Assembly (NCBI RefSeq): GCF_029224025.1
Contig: NZ_CP119392.1
Location: forward strand, 2,937,001 to 3,001,000
Direction of reading: 5' to 3'
DNA from: Rhodanobacter sp. AS-Z3
GTDB lineage: Bacteria; Pseudomonadota; Gammaproteobacteria; Xanthomonadales; Rhodanobacteraceae
Length of the DNA: 64,000 bases
This document shows positions 4,969 through 36,009 of this stretch, one piece after another. How positions within the stretch are numbered: position 1 is the stretch's first letter; the number at the start of each line of letters is the position of its first letter. Under the pieces are notes generated by a model. That model ran no database searches. It worked only from the letters and a program-made list of their open reading frames with translations, and was not told where the DNA came from. A program made the position numbers and the translations under genes.

Positions 4969-5670
4969 CTAAGCCGCGAAAATCAGTGCGACTTCGCTGG
5001 CATCCAGCGGGCGCCATTCGCCCAGCGGCAAATCGCCCAGCACCAGCCCACCAACTGAAACCCGGCGCAAGGTCTCCACGTTGTTGCCGGTGGCGGCGAA
5101 CATGCGGCGTACCTGGTGGTAACGGCCTTCGGTGACACTGAGCCGCGCATGACGCGGGCCGAGCACTTCCAGCTCAGCCGGCGCCAGCGGCTCCTTTTCC
5201 GATTCCAGCATCATCGTGCCGCTGGCAAACAGCTCACCTTCGTCGCCGCGCAAATCCTGCGCCAGCGTGGCCTCGTAGACTTTGGTCACCTGGGTCTTCG
5301 GCGAAATGATCCGGTGCAACAACGCACCATCATCGGTGAACAGCAGCAATCCAGTGGTGTCGCGATCAAGTCGACCGACGCTGGACATCGCCGGTGAGCG
5401 CACGCTGTAACGCGGCGGCAGCAGATCGTAGACGACGCGGCCCGGGTCCTTGCGCGAGCAGGTGATGCCCAGCGGCTTATTCATCATCAGCACCAGACCT
5501 GCTGGTGGGTCCAGCGGCTCGTCGTCGACGCGAATCGTGTCAAGCGGCACCACGTCGTCGGTGTACAGCACGTCGCCAGCGCCATCGGTGATGCGGCCCG
5601 AACGAAACAAGGCAGTGACATCCTTGCGGCTGCCATAGCCAAGATTCGCAATCAGCTTGACCAGTTTCAT
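4969..5670 (-). CDS. rsuA: 16S rRNA pseudouridine-516 synthase
   Basis: A 233-residue protein of the RsuA family, which makes pseudouridine 516 in 16S rRNA. It has an N-terminal S4-type RNA-binding region (MKLVKLIANLGYGSRKDV), the MNKPLGITCS strand, the catalytic motif VGRLDRDTTGLLLFTDD with its Asp, and the C-terminal VTEGRYHQVRRMFAATGN block. It overlaps the end of rsmC by 4 bp (ATGA), so two small-subunit rRNA modifiers are translated from one message. Confidence 0.92.
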   Translation of the reverse strand: MKLVKLIANLGYGSRKDVTALFRSGRITDGAGDVLYTDDVVPLDTIRVDDEPLDPPAGLVLMMNKPLGITCSRKDPGRVVYDLLPPRYSVRSPAMSSVGRLDRDTTGLLLFTDDGALLHRIISPKTQVTKVYEATLAQDLRGDEGELFASGTMMLESEKEPLAPAELEVLGPRHARLSVTEGRYHQVRRMFAATGNNVETLRRVSVGGLVLGDLPLGEWRPLDASEVALIFAA

Positions 5671-6734
5671 CCACGCACCCCTGTTGCTTCGATCACTTTG
5701 AACCCATCCTGCACGATCAGCGTGCGTACTAAATGAAAACGCGCGCCAAGCACCGCTTCGTAAGGCAAATGCCGATTGGCCACGAGCAGCAGGCGACCAT
5801 TGGGCTGCAGCGCCTCGGCGGCGCTGACGATGAACGCGCGACCGAGTTCGGGCAGGTCGGCACGCCCCTGATGAAACGGCGGGTTGCTGACAATGACGTC
5901 ATAACGCTGCGCCAGTCCGCGAGTGACGTCATGCCAGTGCACCGAAATCGCCACCTCACGCCCGGACTGCTGTTTCGCCCGGGCCAGATTTCGCCGTGCC
6001 GGTTCCAGTGCACGGGCTTCGGCTTCGTATAGATCAATGGCCTGCACGCGCGGGCAACGCGCCATCAACTGGCTGGCGAGATAACCGTAGCCGGCACCGA
6101 GATCCGCCACGCTGCCATGCAGATCATCTGGCAAGTGCTCGGCCAGCAAGGCCGAGGCGCGATCAATGCGGTCCCAAGCGAACAATCCGGGACGGCTGAC
6201 ATAGCCATAGACAATTTCGCGTGGCGCATCGAGCCCCAGCCAGTCGGCCAACAGTGGCTGGTCGATGTCGTTCGCTGCCGGCGTGCTCCAGAACACCCGG
6301 CATTTATGCTTGGACAGGTGCTGCACGGTCGTGGCGAGTTTCGCCAGATCCGCCTCGCCCGACTTCGCACCCTCGGTATTCGGCATCGCCGCCAGCACGC
6401 AGCCTCCGGGCTGCAAATGCGTCAAGGCGCGGGCGAACAACGCACGTGCCTCGTCACGCTGACGCGGCGGCAGCAGCAGCACCAGCGCAAACTTCTCGCC
6501 ACTGGCCGGCTCGCCTACGCGCATGCCGTTTCGACCAAGCTCATCGGCAAATGGAAGGAAGCTTTGCTCGCACAGCCAGCCTGGCTGCGCCATCTCACGC
6601 AGGCGCACGCCAGCACGAGCGCGCAGAAACAGCACCTTGCCAGCAACCGGCAAGCTGAGGTCACGCGTCTCGAACGGAACGAACAGGGCGGCCAACGCCG
6701 CATCGGGCGCGGCCGCAAATACGCTGGCAGTCAC
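5667..6734 (-). CDS. rsmC: 16S rRNA (guanine-1207-N2)-methyltransferase-like protein
   Basis: A 355-residue two-domain class I methyltransferase of the RsmC type. The N-terminal half is the degenerate domain. The C-terminal half has the SAM-binding VADLGAGYGYLASQL and the catalytic SNPPFHQG motif that marks N2-guanine methyltransferases. Length fits the family. The start is a GTG (6734), with no strong ribosome-binding site in front of it. It is translationally coupled to rsuA through a 4-bp overlap. The nearest alternative is the 23S enzyme RlmG, but context with rsuA favours RsmC. Confidence 0.85.
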   Translation of the reverse strand: MTASVFAAAPDAALAALFVPFETRDLSLPVAGKVLFLRARAGVRLREMAQPGWLCEQSFLPFADELGRNGMRVGEPASGEKFALVLLLPPRQRDEARALFARALTHLQPGGCVLAAMPNTEGAKSGEADLAKLATTVQHLSKHKCRVFWSTPAANDIDQPLLADWLGLDAPREIVYGYVSRPGLFAWDRIDRASALLAEHLPDDLHGSVADLGAGYGYLASQLMARCPRVQAIDLYEAEARALEPARRNLARAKQQSGREVAISVHWHDVTRGLAQRYDVIVSNPPFHQGRADLPELGRAFIVSAAEALQPNGRLLLVANRHLPYEAVLGARFHLVRTLIVQDGFKVIEATGVRG

Positions 6735-27161: not shown

Positions 27162-27337
27162 GACGCTTCTCCATCGCAAGAGGTCGTTCGATTGTGCTCC
27201 CGAATACGCGCAGCAACCTGTGCCGAGCGGCATGGTGCGTGCTGACGGAATCCCTGCCTGACTGATGGCCTATTCGCCGCGGCGCCTGCTCTGGCAAAGT
27301 GGGGGATCGGCCGGCTGTGGCCACGGGGAAAGCGATC

Positions 27338-30109
27338 ATGCACAAGACCATCCGGTTTTCATGGGGAATGCTGTTCACGCTCGGCGTGTGCGCGGCTCAG
27401 GCGGCCAGTGTGAGCGTGGCTAACGACTATGCGCGTGCGCCGGACCAGCCGCTCGACCAGGCCTATACCGCACAGATCCTGAAGTTCACGACCGATCCGT
27501 CGTTCAACACACCGCTGACGAACTACCTGCCCGCCTCCGCCACGGTACCTACACCGGAGAAAGTGCTGGGCCATATCGCCGGCGCACCGAACTACCTGCC
27601 CTATAGCGCCGACGTATCCCGCTATTTTCGTGCACTGGCCGCCGCCAGCCCACGGGTCAAGGTGTTCAGCATCGGCAAGAGTGAGGAAGGCCGCGAGATG
27701 ATCGCGGTGGCGATCGCCGATGAAAGTCTGCTGGCCGACCTTGATGCAAACAAGGCGCGCCTGGCCAATCTGGCCGATCCACGCGCCATCGGCATGGACG
27801 ATACCAAGGCCGACCAACTGATCGCACAATCCACCCCGGTCTACTACATCACCGGCTCCATCCATTCCACCGAAACCGGTTCGCCCACCGCGTTGATGGA
27901 ACTGGCCTACCGCCTCGCGGTGGATAACGCGCCCTACATCCGTCACATCCGTTCGCATGTGATCACCCTGATCACGCCGGTCGTCGAGGTCGATGGCCGC
28001 GACCGCATGGTCGACCTGTACAACTGGCATCTGGCGCACCCCGGGCAGAACTATTCGCGGCTGCTGTATTGGGGCCACTACGTGGCGCATGACAACAATC
28101 GCGACGCGATGGGCATGTCGCTGGCGCTTACCCGCAACGTCGCCGACACCTTTGTCGGCTGGCATGCGCAGGTGCTGCACGACCTGCACGAGTCGGTGCC
28201 GTTCCTGTACGACAACACCGTGGGCGACGGCCCGTACAACGCGTGGATCGACCCGATCCTCACCGGCGAGTGGCAGCAACTGGGCTGGGACAACGTGCAG
28301 CAAATGACAAGGCTGGGTATGCCCGGCGTGTTCACCCATGGTGACTTCGATACCTGGAGCCCGGGCTATCTGATGTTCATTGCCGCCATGCACAACGGCA
28401 TCAGCCGGCTGTATGAAACCTTCGGCAACAACGGCGCCGATACCGTGCAGCGCATCCTCGATCCGTCGGAATACGCGCGCACCTGGTACAAGCCCAACCC
28501 GCCGCTACCCACCGTGCTGTGGTCACAGCGCAACAACAACAACTACCAGCAGACCGGCCTGCTCACCGCGCTGAATTATTTCTCCAGCAACGGCCAGCAG
28601 TTCCTGAAAAATTTCTACCTGAAGGCCAAACGGTCGATCGAGAAGCCGCAGCAGGCTGGCCCCGCCGCCTATGTGTTCAGCGCGAGCGATCCGCGCCCCG
28701 GCTCACGTGCCCAGCTGCTGCGCGTGCTGCAACGTCAGCATGTGGAGATCAGCATCACCAGCGCACCGGTCACTGTAACCATGCCCGCCCCAGGCGACGA
28801 CAAGAAGCCGGCCGCCAAGCAGACTTTCCCCGCTGGCAGTTACGTGGTGCGCATGGACCAGCCCTACTCGCGCATCGCCGATACGTTACTTGACCGTCAA
28901 TACTGGTCACCGAAGGACCCGCAGCAACATCCGTATGACGACACCGGCTGGTCGATGGGCGACCTGTTCGACGTGCAGCTCGCGCGGGTCACCGATCCGG
29001 CGATCCTGCAAGCGCCAATGAGTGCGCTCGGCGAAGCGGTCAACGTACCTGCCGGACTGGCCGCGATCGACTTGCCCAACGCGAAGCTGCCACGCATCGC
29101 GCTCATGCACACCTGGCTGGGTACACAGACTGAAGGCTGGTGGCGCATCGCGCTGGACAATCTGAACGTTCGTTACGACTACATCAGCACGCAGGACGTA
29201 GCCAAAGCGGGCAACCTGCGCGCCAAGTACGACGTGATCCTGTTCGCACCGATCGGCGACACCAGTGCGCAGGAAATCGTCGACGGCATGCCGATGTGGG
29301 GCAACCCGATGCCGTGGAAGACCACGGCGCTCACGCCGAACCTTGGTCGCATCGACGCTACCGATGACATCCGTCCCGGCCTGGGCAACACCGGGCTGGC
29401 CAACCTCAAACGCTTCGTCCAGGACGGTGGCCTGCTGGTCACCGCCGAGGACACTGCGAAATTCGCCATCGACACCGGTATGGCACCGGGCGTGTCAGTC
29501 GCGCCAACCAATCGACTGAAGGTAGTCGGCAGCGTGCTGCAGGCGAAATTCGTTGACCGCCATAACCCGATCGCCACCAGCTACACCCGCGACGAGCTGG
29601 CTTTGTATAGCGCCAACGGCCAGTCGTTCAACGTATCCAACCTGCTCACCGGCGACCATGGGCTGCCCAGTGCGAAGAGCTTCCAGCGCCCCACCGGTCG
29701 CGGCGGCCCGCACGACACCGACACGCCGGAAGGCAGGGCCGCTACCGCCGCCGCACCGCTGCCCGACGTGCAGCCATGGCAGCCGATGCCGCTGAATGCC
29801 GAGCAGATGCGCAACAACCCGTGGGTGATTCCTGTCGATCAGCGACCGCAGGTGATCCTGCGCTACGCCGAGGCGAAGAACCTGCTGATCGCCGGCCTGC
29901 TCGACGGTGCCGACGAGATGGCCGAGCATGCGGCGGTGGTCGACGCCCGCTACGGCAAGGGCCATGTGCTGCTGTTCGCAAGCAATCCGATCTGGCGCGG
30001 CGAAACCATCGGCAGCTACCCGCTGGTGTTCAACGCAATTCTCCACCATGACCGGCTGGATACGCCGGCGAGCGCCACCCGGCAGGCGACGAGTCAGCCA
30101 GCCGAGTGA
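27338..30109 (+). CDS. Exported M14-family zinc carboxypeptidase
   Basis: A 923-residue exported metallopeptidase. The signal peptide ends near AQAAS (about 23). The M14 zinc site is seen as H-S-T-E (H176, E179) in ITGSIHSTETGSP, with LITPVVEVDGRDRMVD and a DLHE element later. The C-terminal half has a GATase-like fold (DVILFAPIGD, FVQDGGLLVTAEDT), as in large xanthomonad M14 proteins. It should trim C-terminal residues of peptides outside the cytoplasm. It converges with the GGDEF gene of the borosin locus, 9 bp apart, so it is not part of that transcript. Confidence 0.87.
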   Translation: MHKTIRFSWGMLFTLGVCAAQAASVSVANDYARAPDQPLDQAYTAQILKFTTDPSFNTPLTNYLPASATVPTPEKVLGHIAGAPNYLPYSADVSRYFRALAAASPRVKVFSIGKSEEGREMIAVAIADESLLADLDANKARLANLADPRAIGMDDTKADQLIAQSTPVYYITGSIHSTETGSPTALMELAYRLAVDNAPYIRHIRSHVITLITPVVEVDGRDRMVDLYNWHLAHPGQNYSRLLYWGHYVAHDNNRDAMGMSLALTRNVADTFVGWHAQVLHDLHESVPFLYDNTVGDGPYNAWIDPILTGEWQQLGWDNVQQMTRLGMPGVFTHGDFDTWSPGYLMFIAAMHNGISRLYETFGNNGADTVQRILDPSEYARTWYKPNPPLPTVLWSQRNNNNYQQTGLLTALNYFSSNGQQFLKNFYLKAKRSIEKPQQAGPAAYVFSASDPRPGSRAQLLRVLQRQHVEISITSAPVTVTMPAPGDDKKPAAKQTFPAGSYVVRMDQPYSRIADTLLDRQYWSPKDPQQHPYDDTGWSMGDLFDVQLARVTDPAILQAPMSALGEAVNVPAGLAAIDLPNAKLPRIALMHTWLGTQTEGWWRIALDNLNVRYDYISTQDVAKAGNLRAKYDVILFAPIGDTSAQEIVDGMPMWGNPMPWKTTALTPNLGRIDATDDIRPGLGNTGLANLKRFVQDGGLLVTAEDTAKFAIDTGMAPGVSVAPTNRLKVVGSVLQAKFVDRHNPIATSYTRDELALYSANGQSFNVSNLLTGDHGLPSAKSFQRPTGRGGPHDTDTPEGRAATAAAPLPDVQPWQPMPLNAEQMRNNPWVIPVDQRPQVILRYAEAKNLLIAGLLDGADEMAEHAAVVDARYGKGHVLLFASNPIWRGETIGSYPLVFNAILHHDRLDTPASATRQATSQPAE

Positions 30110-30118
30110 TCCCGCGAC

Positions 30119-31942
30119 TCAACCGTGATCAACCGCCACGCCAGCCACGCGCTGGCGTGGCTGCGTGTCATCACTGACCATGACCCGGTTGCGCCCTTCG
30201 CGCTTGGCGCGGTAGAGGCCATCGTCTGCATCGACCAGCAACTTCCGCAGGTCGTAACCGGAACGCTCGATGGTGGCTACGCCAAAGCTGGCCGACACCG
30301 GCACCTCAGCCAGATTGTCGCCGAAGACCGAGGCCGCCGCGATGGCCTCGCGAATCTGCTCGGCACGCGCCAGCGCCTGCTCCAATGTGCATTCCGGCAA
30401 CAGGATACCGAACTCTTCGCCACCGAGCCGACCAAAGATATCGGTGGAACGCAGGTGCTGCTCACACGCCGCCACCGCACGCTTCAGCACGCGATCGCCT
30501 ACCGCGTGCCCATGCGTATCGTTGACCACCTTGAAGTGATCCAGATCGATCAGCACCAGGCAGGCCTGCCGCGAGGACTTGCGGCAGTACTGCAATTGCT
30601 GCTCGGCTGACGTCACAAAATGCTGTCGGTTGAAGATCCCGGTCAGTCCGTCGCGCCGTGCCAGTTTCATGAAACGCAGTTGCGAGCGCTTGATGCGGTA
30701 GGTCATGAACGCAATGAAACCCAGCACCAACAGCAGTAGCAGGAGCTGCAGCCGACTGGTTTCCGAGGCCTTGCGATCCAGCGCCTGCTGCAGTTTCAGC
30801 ACTTGGTTCTGCCGACTCAGCGTATCCACCTGTGCCTTGTTCGCCGCCAGTTGCTGCTTGACCGTCTGGAAGGCCAGCGCCTTCGCGCTGACCTCGTCAA
30901 GATGTCCCTTGTCGGCCACCATATATTTTTCATGGTAGGCCAGCGCTGATGCAGCGTCGCCTTCCTGCTTGGCCAGCGTATAAAGAATCTTGTACGCCTC
31001 GACCACAGCTGGCGCGAATCGATTACTGGTGCCATGCCCGACGGCAGCCAACGCAAATTGCCGGGCCAGTGGCGTTTTCCCTGCCTGCTGATACGCCTGC
31101 GCCAGCAAGCCCTCGAATTGGGCTACCTGCTGCGAATAGTTGTCGCGGTGCACTTCGGCGAGGTGTTTGCTCAGCAAGGCAATCGCCTTGTCCGAATCTC
31201 CCTGCTGCAGAGCGAGGCTGGCTGCAAAGTAGCGGATACCGTTCGCGTAAAGGCTGTTGTTTTCCTTCAGGCAGGTTGCCACGCCTTCGCTGATCAACGG
31301 CTCAATGCCATTCCACTGCCTGCCGCCAAACCGCGCCGCAATCCGCGCATGATCATCGACACAGGTAAAGCCCGGCCTTGCCAACCCCTGCGTGAAGATT
31401 TGTTCGGCGTAATAGGAAGCCAGTGCGTATTGCCCGGCATCGGCATACAGCGACGAAACCACGCCGTAGCCTTTCTCACGCAGGCTCGGCGTTGCGCGTG
31501 ACCCCTCGCCAATCGCTCCGACGAGCTGATCCAGTTGCCGAAAGGCATCTTCGAAACGAGACTGCTCGGAAAGCGAGTTCACCTGCAACATCCGGGTCTT
31601 GAGCCGCAGGTCGTCATCCTGCGAGTCACTCAGGATGGCGTGGGTCAATGCATCCGACTTTTTGTAGTCACCCGCCAGGATGGCCTGCCACGCCTGCAAG
31701 TAACGCAAGTGCTGCTGCTGTTCCGGTGCCAGTTCGTCAATTCTAGGTTCCAGCTGACGCAGCAAGCTGACACATTGATCGGACAGTGACGTGGTGCACG
31801 CCGGATGCTCCGCTTGTTGCAACAAGCTGGCCGCATCAACCGCATTCGTTGACGCGGCCACACCGGTGGAAACGGCGAACGGAAGTCCACCGCCACACGC
31901 AGCGATCAGCGCTAATCGACGCAGTGCGCTGAATGCACGCAT
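30119..31942 (-). CDS. TPR-GGDEF diguanylate cyclase
   Basis: A 607-residue protein: signal-like N-terminus (1-30), TPR-type helices (about 40-350), a coiled coil (360-395), one membrane span (about 399-416) and a GGDEF domain with the intact signature GGEEF (507-511) and an I-site RSTD at 498-501, five residues before it. It should make c-di-GMP in response to a signal bound by the periplasmic TPR part, and be feedback-inhibited. It begins 4 bp after the precursor stop (TGA-GTCC-ATG), so it is translationally coupled to the borosin precursor. Confidence 0.9.
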   Translation of the reverse strand: MRAFSALRRLALIAACGGGLPFAVSTGVAASTNAVDAASLLQQAEHPACTTSLSDQCVSLLRQLEPRIDELAPEQQQHLRYLQAWQAILAGDYKKSDALTHAILSDSQDDDLRLKTRMLQVNSLSEQSRFEDAFRQLDQLVGAIGEGSRATPSLREKGYGVVSSLYADAGQYALASYYAEQIFTQGLARPGFTCVDDHARIAARFGGRQWNGIEPLISEGVATCLKENNSLYANGIRYFAASLALQQGDSDKAIALLSKHLAEVHRDNYSQQVAQFEGLLAQAYQQAGKTPLARQFALAAVGHGTSNRFAPAVVEAYKILYTLAKQEGDAASALAYHEKYMVADKGHLDEVSAKALAFQTVKQQLAANKAQVDTLSRQNQVLKLQQALDRKASETSRLQLLLLLLVLGFIAFMTYRIKRSQLRFMKLARRDGLTGIFNRQHFVTSAEQQLQYCRKSSRQACLVLIDLDHFKVVNDTHGHAVGDRVLKRAVAACEQHLRSTDIFGRLGGEEFGILLPECTLEQALARAEQIREAIAAASVFGDNLAEVPVSASFGVATIERSGYDLRKLLVDADDGLYRAKREGRNRVMVSDDTQPRQRVAGVAVDHG

Positions 31943-31946
31943 GGAC

Positions 31947-32300
31947 TCAAGCGGGCAACGAGCTAAGTAGGCGGCCGTCGCTCTCGACGAGAAGTGCCCG
32001 CTCGGAATCATCCGCGAGCTCTTCGTCCTCGTCGGCTTCTTTGGCGGGCGACGGTGGTGGTACGGCAGGCCGTGCCGGCTGCGGGCCGGTACCTGGCGGG
32101 CCGGGTGGTGATACCAAAACGCAGACGGGCTTCGATCCCAGCAACTCGCCCAGGCGCTCGGCGTCGCGCGCGACCAACGCTGCATACTGTTGGGGGGTGG
32201 CGTCGACGACAGCCAAGGCCGTAGCCAATTCATCCGGTGAAGCCTGCGAAAGCTGCGCGTCCCCGCCCATCCTTTCGAGAAAATCGATCACATCCAGCAT
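31947..32300 (-). CDS. Candidate split-borosin RiPP precursor peptide
   Basis: A 117-residue protein. Residues 1-54 are predicted helical and read DFLERMGGDAQL then SPDELATALA and LVARDAERLGELLG, the layout of the recognition domain of split-borosin precursors such as SonA of Shewanella. The likely core follows: KPVCVLVSPP (57-66), a short hydrophobic strand like the methylated SonA segment. Then come a Pro-rich stretch (65-86), an acidic stretch (88-99) and a second hydrophobic tail (LLVESDGRLLSSLPA, 103-117). AGGA precedes the ATG by 7 bases. It lies between the methyltransferase and the GGDEF gene. That it is a substrate is inferred from context and domain layout; a Nif11-like protein is the alternative. 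Confidence 0.78.
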   Translation of the reverse strand: MLDVIDFLERMGGDAQLSQASPDELATALAVVDATPQQYAALVARDAERLGELLGSKPVCVLVSPPGPPGTGPQPARPAVPPPSPAKEADEDEELADDSERALLVESDGRLLSSLPA

Positions 32301-32497
32301 GTATCAGTCCTCAAGCCAAGTTGCTCAGACGCTCACCCGGAACGGCAGTAAACGTATCCACTGTCGCCCCCGTTGCGTAACACCGGGAATGCATCGGCAT
32401 CGTTCCAGCTAAAGCTTCGGACGCGCCCCTCGCGGCCAGCTCCAATCCCGCAGAATAGTGTTTTCTTGCGCCCTCAGGTAGTCAACCTGATGCACCG

Positions 32498-33310
32498 TCA
32501 CCCAGTACCAGCCACCGCACGGTCCAGCGCATCAAAGCGCGCGAGTATCTCCGGATTGGGCTGCATGGCATACGCCGGTGGAATCACCAGAGTATCGGTC
32601 ATGTCCAGCTTCGCCTGCGGCAACGCAGCAAGCGTGCACCGCTCGATGCGTGGCGACTGGATCGGCAGCGTCGCGGCGCGATAGATGGTCACCTCATGGT
32701 TCAACGGATAGTCGCGTGCCAGCACATCCACCAGCACCTGACGATAGGCGGCATTGGTGGAGAAACGCGCCATCGACTGGTCGCCGACCACGCCGACCTG
32801 CCACAGGATCAGGTAGGCCGCAGGATCGATGCGTCGCTGGTAGAACAGCAACTGGCTGGCTTCGTAGTGCTGGCAGCCATACGCACCCGGGTCGATGCCG
32901 AGATCGGCGTATAGACAGCCTTCGGCCGAAATGGCCGGCTCCATGTGCGCGCGGCAGCCCTCCTCCCTGGCCAGCTCGATCGCCTTGTGCGGCACCCATG
33001 CAAACACGCCGGGATGACCGTAGAACACGCCACAGACCCGCCTGCCGGCGCGCACTTCCACCAGCATGGCTTCGACCATCTGCCAATAGGTGTTCATACG
33101 CGAGCTGCCTTCCTGGTAGAACGACTGCAAGCTGCGTACGTCGGCGTGCATGCGCCGCAGCCACAACTCCACGATGCCATCGGACAGCGCGAAAAACACT
33201 ACGTCGGCCTGTTCGATATGACTGCGCGCCAGCGGCGCCAGATGGGCACCCAAGGTCATGCCCAAGCCGACACAGACCAAGCTTCCAGTCGAAGGCGTTG
33301 TTTGCATCAT
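32498..33310 (-). CDS. Split-borosin peptide backbone alpha-N-methyltransferase
   Basis: A 270-residue SAM-dependent methyltransferase of the tetrapyrrole-methylase fold. It is the borosin type: the stretches SRMNTYWQM (70-78), VCGVFYGHPGVFAWVPHKA (92-110), AISAEGCLYADLGIDPG (126-142) and YEASQLLF (149-156) match the methyltransferase half of OphMA closely as I recall it. Y65, R71, Y75 and Y97 align with OphMA Y66, R72, Y76 and Y98, the active-site residues. The protein ends soon after the IPPA block, so no core peptide is fused, as in the split SonM type. It would methylate backbone amide nitrogens of the precursor encoded next. Start options are two ATGs (33310, 33307). It lies 20 bp after the slipin gene. 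Confidence 0.88.
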   Translation of the reverse strand: MMQTTPSTGSLVCVGLGMTLGAHLAPLARSHIEQADVVFFALSDGIVELWLRRMHADVRSLQSFYQEGSSRMNTYWQMVEAMLVEVRAGRRVCGVFYGHPGVFAWVPHKAIELAREEGCRAHMEPAISAEGCLYADLGIDPGAYGCQHYEASQLLFYQRRIDPAAYLILWQVGVVGDQSMARFSTNAAYRQVLVDVLARDYPLNHEVTIYRAATLPIQSPRIERCTLAALPQAKLDMTDTLVIPPAYAMQPNPEILARFDALDRAVAGTG

Positions 33311-33330
33311 GCTGACTCGTTTGGGGTGAA

Positions 33331-34107
33331 TCAGTCAGTTTTACCCGAATCGCGCTTGGACGGAAATGCTTCCATCAGTGGCCGGATCAAGTCCAGCGGC
33401 AACGGGAACACGATGGTCGAGGACTTGCCGTTGTTGGACATGTCGGCCAGTGTCTGCAGGTAACGCAATTGCAGCGCCTGCGGCTGCTGCGACAACATGG
33501 CGGCGGCATCACGCAGTTTCTCCGCTGCCTGCATTTCACCCTCGGCGTGGATCACCTTGGCGCGGCGTTCGCGTTCGGCCTCGGCCTGGCGGGCGATCGC
33601 GCGCACCATGGTTTCGTTGAGGTCGACGTCCTTGATCTCCACGTTCATGATCTTGATGCCCCACGGATCGGTGGCTTCATCCAGCGTGGTCTGCAAGGTG
33701 TGGTTGATCGAGTCGCGCTGGGACAGGATCTCGTCCAGTTCGTGCTGGCCCAGCACCGAACGCAAGCGCGTCTGCGCCAGCTGGCTGGTCGCCTGCAGGA
33801 AGTTTTCCACTTCCAGCACCGACTTGTCCGAATCAACCACGCGGAAGTAGACCACCGCGTTGACCCTCACCGACACGTTGTCGCGCGAGATCACGTCCTG
33901 CGGCGGCACGTCCATCACGGTGACCCGCAGGTCGACCCGGATCATGGTTTGCACCACCGGAATCAGCAGCACCAGGCCGGGGCCCTTGGTACTGGTGTAG
34001 CGACCCAGGGTCAGCACCACGCCGCGCTGGTACTCCGGCAGGATCTTGATCGTGGCAAACAGCAACATCGCGCCAAGAATGACCAGTACACCGACAAATC
34101 CGAACAT
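33331..34107 (-). CDS. SPFH-domain slipin (stomatin-like) protein
   Basis: A 258-residue SPFH/band 7 protein. An N-terminal membrane anchor ([20 protein letters not shown]) is followed by the slipin core: [55 protein letters not shown] and a coiled [22 protein letters not shown]. It should form membrane oligomers at the inner membrane. AGGAG is 6 bases before the ATG. It lies 16 bp after nfeD, its usual partner, and 20 bp before the borosin methyltransferase. Confidence 0.93.
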
Positions 34108-34123
34108 TTCTATCTCCTGAACT

Positions 34124-35536
34124 TCATGAAATTTCTGCGTCGGCTTGCGCCGGCTCGACCCGCAACAACAAACCCTGCCGCGACAGCACCCGCACGCGCG
34201 CACCAGCCGGCAATGCCGTAGCGCAATGCACGCGCCAGCGCTCGCCGCGCAACATCATCCAGCTCTCGCCGCCGGGAACGACGGCCTGCAGCAAATCGCC
34301 GGTGTCAGCCAGCATCGCCGCATCACCACTGAACTGCGGCGCTCGCCGCGCGCGAAACACCAGCCACACGATCAGCCCGAGCAGTGCGGCCGCACACACC
34401 GCAATGCCGCCGATCGCGCCCAGATTCACCGCATAACCGGGCACGCCGGTGTTCATCAGCATGACCGAACCGGTGACAAAAGCGACCAACCCGCCGATGC
34501 CGAAAGCGACCACGCCGGGATTCACCGCTTCGGCCACCAGCATGCCAATGCCCAGCGCCATCAGCGCCAGCCCGGCGTAGTTCACCGGCAACAACTGCAG
34601 CGCGTACAAGCCGACCAGCAGGCTGATCGCACCGACGATGCCGGGCAGCATGGCGCCGGGATGCAGTGCTTCCAGCCCAAGGCCAAAGATGCCGCCCAAC
34701 AGCAGCAGATAGGCGATGGTCGGATTGGTGATGATGCCCAGGAAGCGAGTGCGCGCATCGGGCGCATAGCTACGCACCGTAGCCCCTTGCAGATTCAGCG
34801 TGACGGTGCGATCACCCAGCTTCACCACGCGGCCGTTTGATTTCGCCAGCAGGTCGTTCACATCGCTGGCGACGAAGTCGATCACGTGTTGTTGCGCGGC
34901 CTCGCCGGCGGTCAACGTCGCGGCGCCGCGCACCGCCTGCGCTGCCCAGTCCGCATTGCGCCCGCGTAGCTGTGCCAGCGAGCGGATGTAGGCAATCGCA
35001 TCGTTGGTGACTTTGTTTGATTCGGCATCATGGCCCGCTGCCGACGGCTCGCTGCGAACGGTGGAACTGGCGACGGGTTGGCTGGCCGGCCTGGCCGAAG
35101 GCCGTGGCGTGTTGCCGCCCAAGGACACCGGCGTCGCCGCACCGACATGGGTGGCCGGTGCCATCGCGGCAATCTGGCCGGCATAAAGAATATAGGTACC
35201 GGCCGAGGCGGCACGGGCACCGTCGGGTGCGACGTAGACCAGCACGGGAATGTCGCTGGCCAGCATCCGCGAGATGATCAATCGCATCGATTCGGACAGC
35301 CCACCCGGTGTATCCAGCTGCAGCACGATGGCTTGCGCGCCGTCGTGCTCCGCGCGGATCGAGGCACCCTCGAAATACTCGGCGGCGGCAGGACCGATCG
35401 GCCCCTCCAGCGTGATCTTCGCCACCATCTTTCCGGCAGCCTCGTGACCGGCTGCCGCCGCGTGGTCAGCCCAAGTCGGGGTCACCAAAAACGCAGCCAA
35501 CAGGGCCGCGCTCATTCGCCACCAACCACGCTTCAT
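34124..35536 (-). CDS. NfeD-type membrane-bound ClpP-class serine protease
   Basis: A 470-residue NfeD long-form protein. It has a signal peptide (1-27), a ClpP-class protease domain with [13 protein letters not shown] and the nucleophile Ser in [11 protein letters not shown], the general-base Lys region SNKVTND, then about 4-5 membrane helices, and a C-terminal OB-fold ([22 protein letters not shown]). Its archaeal relatives cleave the C-terminus of partner stomatins. GGAGG is 8 bases before the ATG. It leads the slipin gene by 16 bp. Confidence 0.92.
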
Positions 35537-36009
35537 CACGCCGACCTCCGCAAACAGCGACGATACCGCCACTGTACGCGTGCAGGTGTTCAAAAACGGT
35601 CACACACAGGAAAATCATGCAAGGCCGGCTGGGCGCACAAGGACGAAAGGCACTACGCCTGATGATGTTGCAAGTCGCCACCCCGAAGCGACCATTCGGC
35701 ACGCGCGTGCCCGTCCGAAAAACCGTTGACGCCAGCCAGCAGCACGAGCATGTCCACCGGCGACGACAGCAACCACCTCAGGTCGCAGCGCCGAATGCTC
35801 GCCGAGCATGCAGGGCTGCCTGGCAGCGAGGTGGCCCAGTCCGGCGCGCTGTCAGGTCGGAAGATACGGCGCGAATGGCCTGCGCTGCCGCGGTCACGCG
35901 TGGCCGAGTTCCGTATCCGGCAGCAGTGCAAGAAACAAGCTATGCGCTTGGACAGGCTATGCCGCGGTGGCGCCAGACAGGTTTGGCTGAGCGTGACCCG
36001 ACTCGCCCA
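35537..36009. other. Gap upstream of nfeD, no recognisable gene
   Basis: A minus-strand frame (35653-35931) ends in a hydrophobic-containing VDMLVLLAGVNGFSD stretch, but lacks a ribosome-binding site and resembles nothing I know. Its Arg-rich start looks non-coding. It could be a decayed gene remnant. The nfeD promoter should also lie here. Confidence 0.3.

Follow-up and report, generated by a model that had tools for sequence, protein, structure and literature searches.

What does a split borosin pair do in Rhodanobacter sp. AS-Z3, and which of the genes around it belong to the same system? Split borosins, in which the backbone N-methyltransferase and its precursor peptide are separate proteins, were defined on SonM and SonA of Shewanella oneidensis (Miller 2021, PMC8429565; PDB 7ltc and others), and type IV borosin clusters are described as widespread in bacteria in a 2024 review (PMC11285071). 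Within the accessible literature, no stated function was found for the bacterial split borosins. The locus discussed here lies in a stretch of 64,000 nucleotides, referred to below as the window, for which an earlier note had proposed a two-gene split borosin locus. The pair itself belongs to an already published class; what is added to that note is a third gene, encoding a diguanylate cyclase.

Organization of the locus

The two open reading frames (ORFs) of the earlier note lie where it had placed them, on the minus strand, and the motifs it quoted (SRMNTYWQM, VFYGHPGVF, DFLERMGGDAQL and KPVCVLVSPP) are present in the translations. Its methyltransferase-precursor pair is real, but the cyclase gene that follows was overlooked, and the locus is a trio (Table 1). 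The spacing between precursor and cyclase likely reflects translational coupling. The ORF list gives the cyclase a longer frame (30119-32233) that overlaps the precursor; the ATG at 31942 was taken as the start on two grounds: it leads into a signal-peptide-like stretch, and in related loci (e.g. L031, L033, L041 and L042) the cyclase homologues start 3-16 nt past the stop codon of the precursor.

Table 1. Features of the three-gene locus, in window coordinates
Feature	Position	Strand	Basis
Borosin methyltransferase, 270 aa	32498-33310	-	SonM homologue by PDB search
Borosin precursor, 117 aa	31947-32300	-	Homologues, 26-row alignment, profile match to SonA
Leader/borosin-binding domain, precursor residues 1-57	32130-32300	-	Profile alignment to SonA
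Probable core, precursor residues 58-66 (PVCVLVSPP)	32103-32129	-	Position inferred
Pro-rich then acidic tail, precursor residues 67-117	31950-32102	-	26-row alignment
4-nt gap, precursor stop to third-gene ATG	31943-31946	-	Read from sequence
Diguanylate cyclase with TPR-like sensor, 607 aa, third locus member	30119-31942	-	GGDEF match (2.4e-43) and linkage
TPR-like sensor region, residues 25-395, predicted periplasmic	30758-31870	-	TPR_14 in relatives
Predicted membrane helix, about residues 394-418	30689-30763	-	Kyte-Doolittle up to 2.04
GGDEF domain, residues 429-586; GGEEF at 507-511, RSTD upstream (I-site-like)	30185-30658	-	

Positions 30000-34300 were scanned for promoters and terminators, and the sites returned were no more numerous than in shuffled sequences. 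Directly upstream of the methyltransferase, across a 21 bp gap, lie SPFH/Band 7 and NfeD genes (33331-35593, minus strand), a neighbourhood that is not constant among the loci of relatives. On the other side, a secreted-looking M14 zinc carboxypeptidase (27299-30109, plus strand) is convergent with the cyclase gene; it also adjoins the cyclase in L031, L033 and L041 and was not seen in the other 12-kb loci compared.

The methyltransferase

The best PDB matches of the methyltransferase are SonM chains (265 bits, E 6.5e-78), and OphMA chains align over query residues 4-262 (173 bits, E 6.7e-50). The earlier note had named a better match to tetrapyrrole methylases, with the active-site tyrosines absent, as an outcome that would speak against a borosin enzyme. 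Instead, all 25 distinct PDB sequences at E <= 0.001 are borosin enzymes (SonM, OphMA, dbOphMA and MroMA), and identity as a tetrapyrrole (cobalamin) methylase was rejected, the best NCBIfam match scoring 33 bits against a cut-off of 525. In Pfam, the protein matches the broad TP_methylase family alone (PF00590, 9e-16), and at least 4871 database proteins match it at E <= 1e-20. The residues Y65, R71, Y75 and Y97, which the earlier note had placed at OphMA Y66, R72, Y76 and Y98, align pairwise with Y58, R67, Y71 and Y93 of SonM, whose mutants are described as losing up to about 100-fold in efficiency (PMC8429565). Likewise, the SonM match reaches residue 259 of 270, in agreement with the claim that no core is fused to the enzyme. 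Methyltransferase and precursor are separate ORFs, as in type IV split borosins, and differ in this from the fungal borosins such as OphMA, where the core is fused to an enzyme of the same methyltransferase family.

The precursor

Taken alone, the precursor sequence reaches SonA in the PDB at E 0.49, too divergent for proof, whereas a 26-row precursor profile reaches SonA chains at E 3.3e-4 to 1.2e-3, and SonA accounts for seven of its eight PDB matches at E <= 1. Over profile positions 1-57 to 1-59 the alignment to SonA 1-57 is free of gaps, and the borosin-binding domain of SonA is given as residues 1-53 (PMC8429565). The separate precursor with a SonA-like recognition domain that the earlier note had proposed is therefore supported at the level of profile homology, the leader finding the SonA domain at the lower of these E values. 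Precursor homologues number 39 at E <= 1e-3; C60, P65, P66, P68 and P82 are invariant in the 26 that were aligned, and the last part of the tail is variable. The modification-site residues of SonA, given as L63 and I65 (PMC8429565), face V63 and P65 only when the ungapped register of the SonA alignments is extended.

In another family of the order, a short ORF lies beside the methyltransferase in all 17 contexts read by eye, and its end carries a Cys closely followed, within a few residues, by an acidic stretch, so that a Cys-containing hydrophobic segment leading into acidic residues recurs. Cores without Cys occur elsewhere (e.g. L036, L039 and L056), as do NSTIKA-type endings (L078 and L082). 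Two or more precursors per methyltransferase are found in L031, L033, L041 and many other loci, for example a long Pro-rich one together with a shorter one ending PLPEEEWEQYQ.

On the homology of both proteins, the locus can be assigned with high confidence to the split borosins, and the neighbouring enzyme would be expected to methylate the precursor. That the enzyme has another substrate, or that the 117-residue protein is bound but left unmethylated, is very improbable: the faint resemblance of the single precursor sequence to SonA leaves room for it, and against it stand the four retained pocket residues, the profile match to SonA and the position of the precursor, next to the enzyme in every one of the 11 named loci. 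The likeness to SonM/SonA, as that pair is described in PMC8429565, extends to a free-standing methyltransferase of about 263-270 residues, a separate precursor, a helical leader and the same pocket residues. Unlike SonA, the precursor of the window has 117 rather than about 75 residues, a core with a Cys and a tail that is Pro-rich and acidic, and it is followed by a TPR-GGDEF gene.

Distribution

The earlier note had called backbone N-methylation a rare RiPP modification; in this genus, however, the locus is no rarity. The methyltransferase occurs in 45 of the 60 genomes searched (that of the window included); within the genus, 34 of the 35 remaining genomes have it. The order yields 92 matches in 71 of 151 genomes. 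At the level of the class, 9 of 369 genomes hold a match at E <= 1e-25, seven of them outside the order. All 11 named loci (from Rhodanobacter, Dyella and a Frateuria MAG) carry the full trio. The genome of the window itself has two methyltransferase copies, each with a precursor and a cyclase; the second trio (L042:7426-10619, about 955400-958600) has a precursor without the Cys-Val-Leu-Val core.

The cyclase

The third gene encodes a protein with a hydrophobic N-terminus, a TPR-like region, one membrane helix and a C-terminal GGDEF domain. Its GGEEF sequence is accompanied by an RxxD motif at inhibitory-site spacing, and the GGEEF columns are invariant in 49 of 49 aligned homologues. More broadly, 89 of the 90 GGDEF ORFs in the loci examined keep GG[DE]E[FY], and 31 of the 90 have RxxD at inhibitory-site spacing. 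With both the signature and the full domain intact, diguanylate cyclase activity is predicted.

TPR_14 is detected in 9 of 13 aligned cyclases (best 2e-11), and the member in the window falls below the cut-off (TPR_12, E 0.019); the TPR label on its sensor is taken from the TPR_14 matches of these relatives. Hydropathy alone, in the form of the hydrophobic N-terminus and the one membrane helix, suggests a periplasmic sensor region, and the signal-peptide hydropathy peak at the N-terminus is weak (1.69). When a profile of the sensor was searched against the PDB, the best match was a eukaryotic TPR protein (E 0.0011), and 6 of 15 weak matches were arbitrium receptors or RapF (E 0.013-0.14). Because these six are weak and a eukaryotic TPR protein is matched best, they may mirror generic TPR similarity alone. 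RRNPP receptors, which include the arbitrium receptor and the Rap phosphatases, are TPR folds that bind peptide signals, and they are cytoplasmic receptors of Gram-positives and their phages. Any likeness of the window's sensor to them would lie in these weak profile matches, and its predicted periplasmic location would be a difference.

Linkage of split borosins to the cyclase

The association with a cyclase is not particular to the window. Across the 151 genomes of the order, a GGDEF gene lies on the same strand within 4 kb of 84 of the 92 methyltransferase matches, and three of these are fusions. Chance placement was rejected on comparison with random 810-bp intervals, of which 5.2% (200,000 draws) had such a gene within 4 kb, the control representing the window's genome with its 48 GGDEF domains and the surveyed genomes being related to each other and hence non-independent. 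By coordinates, a gene matching the cyclase of the window (E <= 1e-60) occurs on the same strand within 4 kb of 46 of the 92, a fraction that falls with methyltransferase score from 38/39 (>= 340 bits) through 8/27 (250-340 bits) to 0/26 (below 250 bits). A fading of the link in distant families was considered and discarded as an artefact of that cut-off, since reading the other 46 contexts revealed a same-strand GGDEF gene in 38 (nearest gap <= 1829 bp). The remaining eight comprise five contig ends or fragments (L096, L100, L103, L104 and L115), the two halves of L094 and one intact locus (L060). Ten of the 38 contexts hold a GGDEF protein that does not match the sensor region of the window's cyclase; six of the ten (L076, L107, L109, L111, L112 and L114) have their GGDEF gene 1.5-1.8 kb away.

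The precursor gives a similar picture. Searched against these 151 genomes, its profile has 46 matches at E <= 0.01, and in 44 of them a cyclase starts within 1 kb downstream; the two others are the L060 precursor and a match to the Pro-rich part alone. From the side of the cyclase, 13 of 66 matches have no methyltransferase match within 8 kb on their strand, and a precursor lies just upstream of seven of the 13, with none recognised at the other six. One of these six is a third TPR-GGDEF gene in the genome that holds the window (L043, 4008057-4009805), with no recognised precursor or methyltransferase adjoining it.

Outside the order, a same-strand GGDEF gene stands beside one of seven matches (L083), and the cyclase link is therefore not general to split borosins; it characterises this order and appears at least once beyond it. 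Within the order, the near-constant cyclase neighbour suggests that the peptide belongs to a signalling system. A less likely alternative is that the pair is a plain split borosin and its methylated peptide serves some other purpose, such as antibiosis or metal binding, with the cyclase merely timing its production or use. Cyclases can regulate neighbouring genes, the methyltransferase-precursor pair fits a published pathway class, and six of the seven matches outside the order do without a cyclase. Such a role for the cyclase accords poorly, however, with the seven precursor-cyclase pairs that persist without a nearby methyltransferase, and with L056, where one methyltransferase accompanies five cyclases and three recognised precursors and can thus serve several precursor-cyclase pairs. 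Nor was a dedicated exporter or immunity gene recognised in the 12-kb loci, in which genes were named by their match to the window.

The link is also kept across different gene orders, from methyltransferase-precursor-cyclase in the window to precursor-cyclase-methyltransferase (e.g. L080 and L095) and to cyclase-methyltransferase fusions. The fusions (L078:776-3364, L079:667-3204 and L090:1354-3924) are single frames of TPR, GGDEF and methyltransferase domains, each after a precursor. As the two catalytic domains of such a chain would share one side of the membrane, the fusions would suit a reversed relationship, in which the cyclase acts on the borosin pair and c-di-GMP, GTP or membrane anchoring controls the activity or location of the methyltransferase. 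This we regard as improbable, given that the genes are separate in most loci and that several precursor-cyclase pairs have no methyltransferase nearby.

Correlated divergence of precursor and sensor

Divergence was compared over 39 loci, in sets of 19 and 20, which yield 42 precursor-cyclase pairs; in the set of 20, the complete trio is present at 19, and the remaining locus, L122, is cut off by the end of its contig. In Mantel tests, whose p-values ignore shared ancestry, leader distance correlates with sensor distance once methyltransferase and GGDEF distances are removed (42 pairs, r 0.468, p 0.0005), but not with GGDEF distance once methyltransferase and sensor distances are removed (42 pairs, r 0.094, p 0.14). 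Checks gave leader-sensor values of 0.37 (Poisson distances), 0.484 (39-pair subset) and 0.358 (160 conserved sensor columns), and the GGDEF term stayed weak throughout (0.08-0.13, p 0.09-0.18). A correlation also remains between leader and methyltransferase distances once the other two are accounted for (r 0.276, p 0.002), as would be anticipated for an enzyme and its substrate. Precursor divergence tracks the sensor, then, beyond both the methyltransferase and the GGDEF output domain, which argues against a peptide with an unrelated job. Linked recombination could add to the correlation, because the precursor adjoins the sensor-coding end of the cyclase gene, although similar leader correlations come from all thirds of the sensor (0.37-0.41).

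Proposed function

Considered together, the reading in terms of c-di-GMP would rest on homology, retained active-site residues, linkage, fusion and correlated divergence. A functional tie between the split borosin and the cyclase is likely, and a role of the peptide as ligand of the TPR-like sensor is plausible. The full proposal, to which we give slightly better than an even chance, is that the three genes form a unit in which the methylated peptide, or the whole modified precursor, acts on the sensor and changes c-di-GMP output. The methyltransferase would dock the helical leader (residues 1-57) and methylate backbone nitrogens in the hydrophobic stretch that follows, at about residues 59-63 (VCVLV); prolines cannot take a backbone N-methyl group. 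The product would then engage the TPR-like sensor of the downstream cyclase and alter its output, in one direction or the other. The core limits, cleavage and export of the peptide are likewise presumed, and a product made in the cytoplasm would have to reach a sensor predicted to be periplasmic. A wider version, tentative and distinctly less probable, holds that N-methylated RiPPs are dedicated ligands of TPR cyclases, each precursor having a receptor cyclase of its own and a single methyltransferase being able to process several of them, in an order-wide family of peptide-to-c-di-GMP systems.

To our knowledge, no earlier pathway leads from a RiPP to c-di-GMP, and the one proposed here would, if true, be the first known. 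The near-constant cyclase partner would give split borosins a concrete and testable job, the control of c-di-GMP by a peptide that, being methylated on its backbone, would be protease-resistant. Natural receptor-ligand pairs would also become available for engineering.

Relation to described systems

Borosin types V-X reportedly come from Imani 2022 and Cho 2022. The account of Xu 2024 (PMC11395268) lists types 0-X, and its Figure 1 legend names a GGDEF domain, without a function; its text, so far as accessible, makes no mention of c-di-GMP or a cyclase. The L078, L079 and L090 fusions would fit such a GGDEF-bearing architecture, whereas the window, like most relatives, encodes the cyclase separately. 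A word search of the main text of Miller 2021 (PMC8429565) for GGDEF, diguanylate or tetratricopeptide returned nothing. No paper linking borosins with diguanylate cyclases or Rhodanobacter, or backbone N-methylation with c-di-GMP, was found in a search that had most subscription papers outside its reach, and a description of the separate-gene link may already have been published.

The closest functional parallel is from Vibrio vulnificus, where the TPR domain of the cyclase RcbB is described as repressing RcbB and its operon partner RcbA as relieving that repression (PMC12282931). By analogy, an operon-encoded partner may tune a TPR-GGDEF cyclase through its TPR domain in the window as well. 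Unlike the precursor of the trio, RcbA is itself a TPR protein and not a RiPP precursor, and no methyltransferase is described in the accessible part of PMC12282931.

Variant loci

In L111, a flavin amine oxidase gene (4994-6592, identified by Pfam) lies between the GGDEF gene and the borosin precursor, and by likeness to L111, on which the Pfam run was made, the same gene is interposed in L112 and L114; it is possibly a tailoring enzyme. At L094:3829-5463, one 545-residue frame holds two tandem borosin-type methyltransferase domains, with a short precursor-like ORF adjoining.
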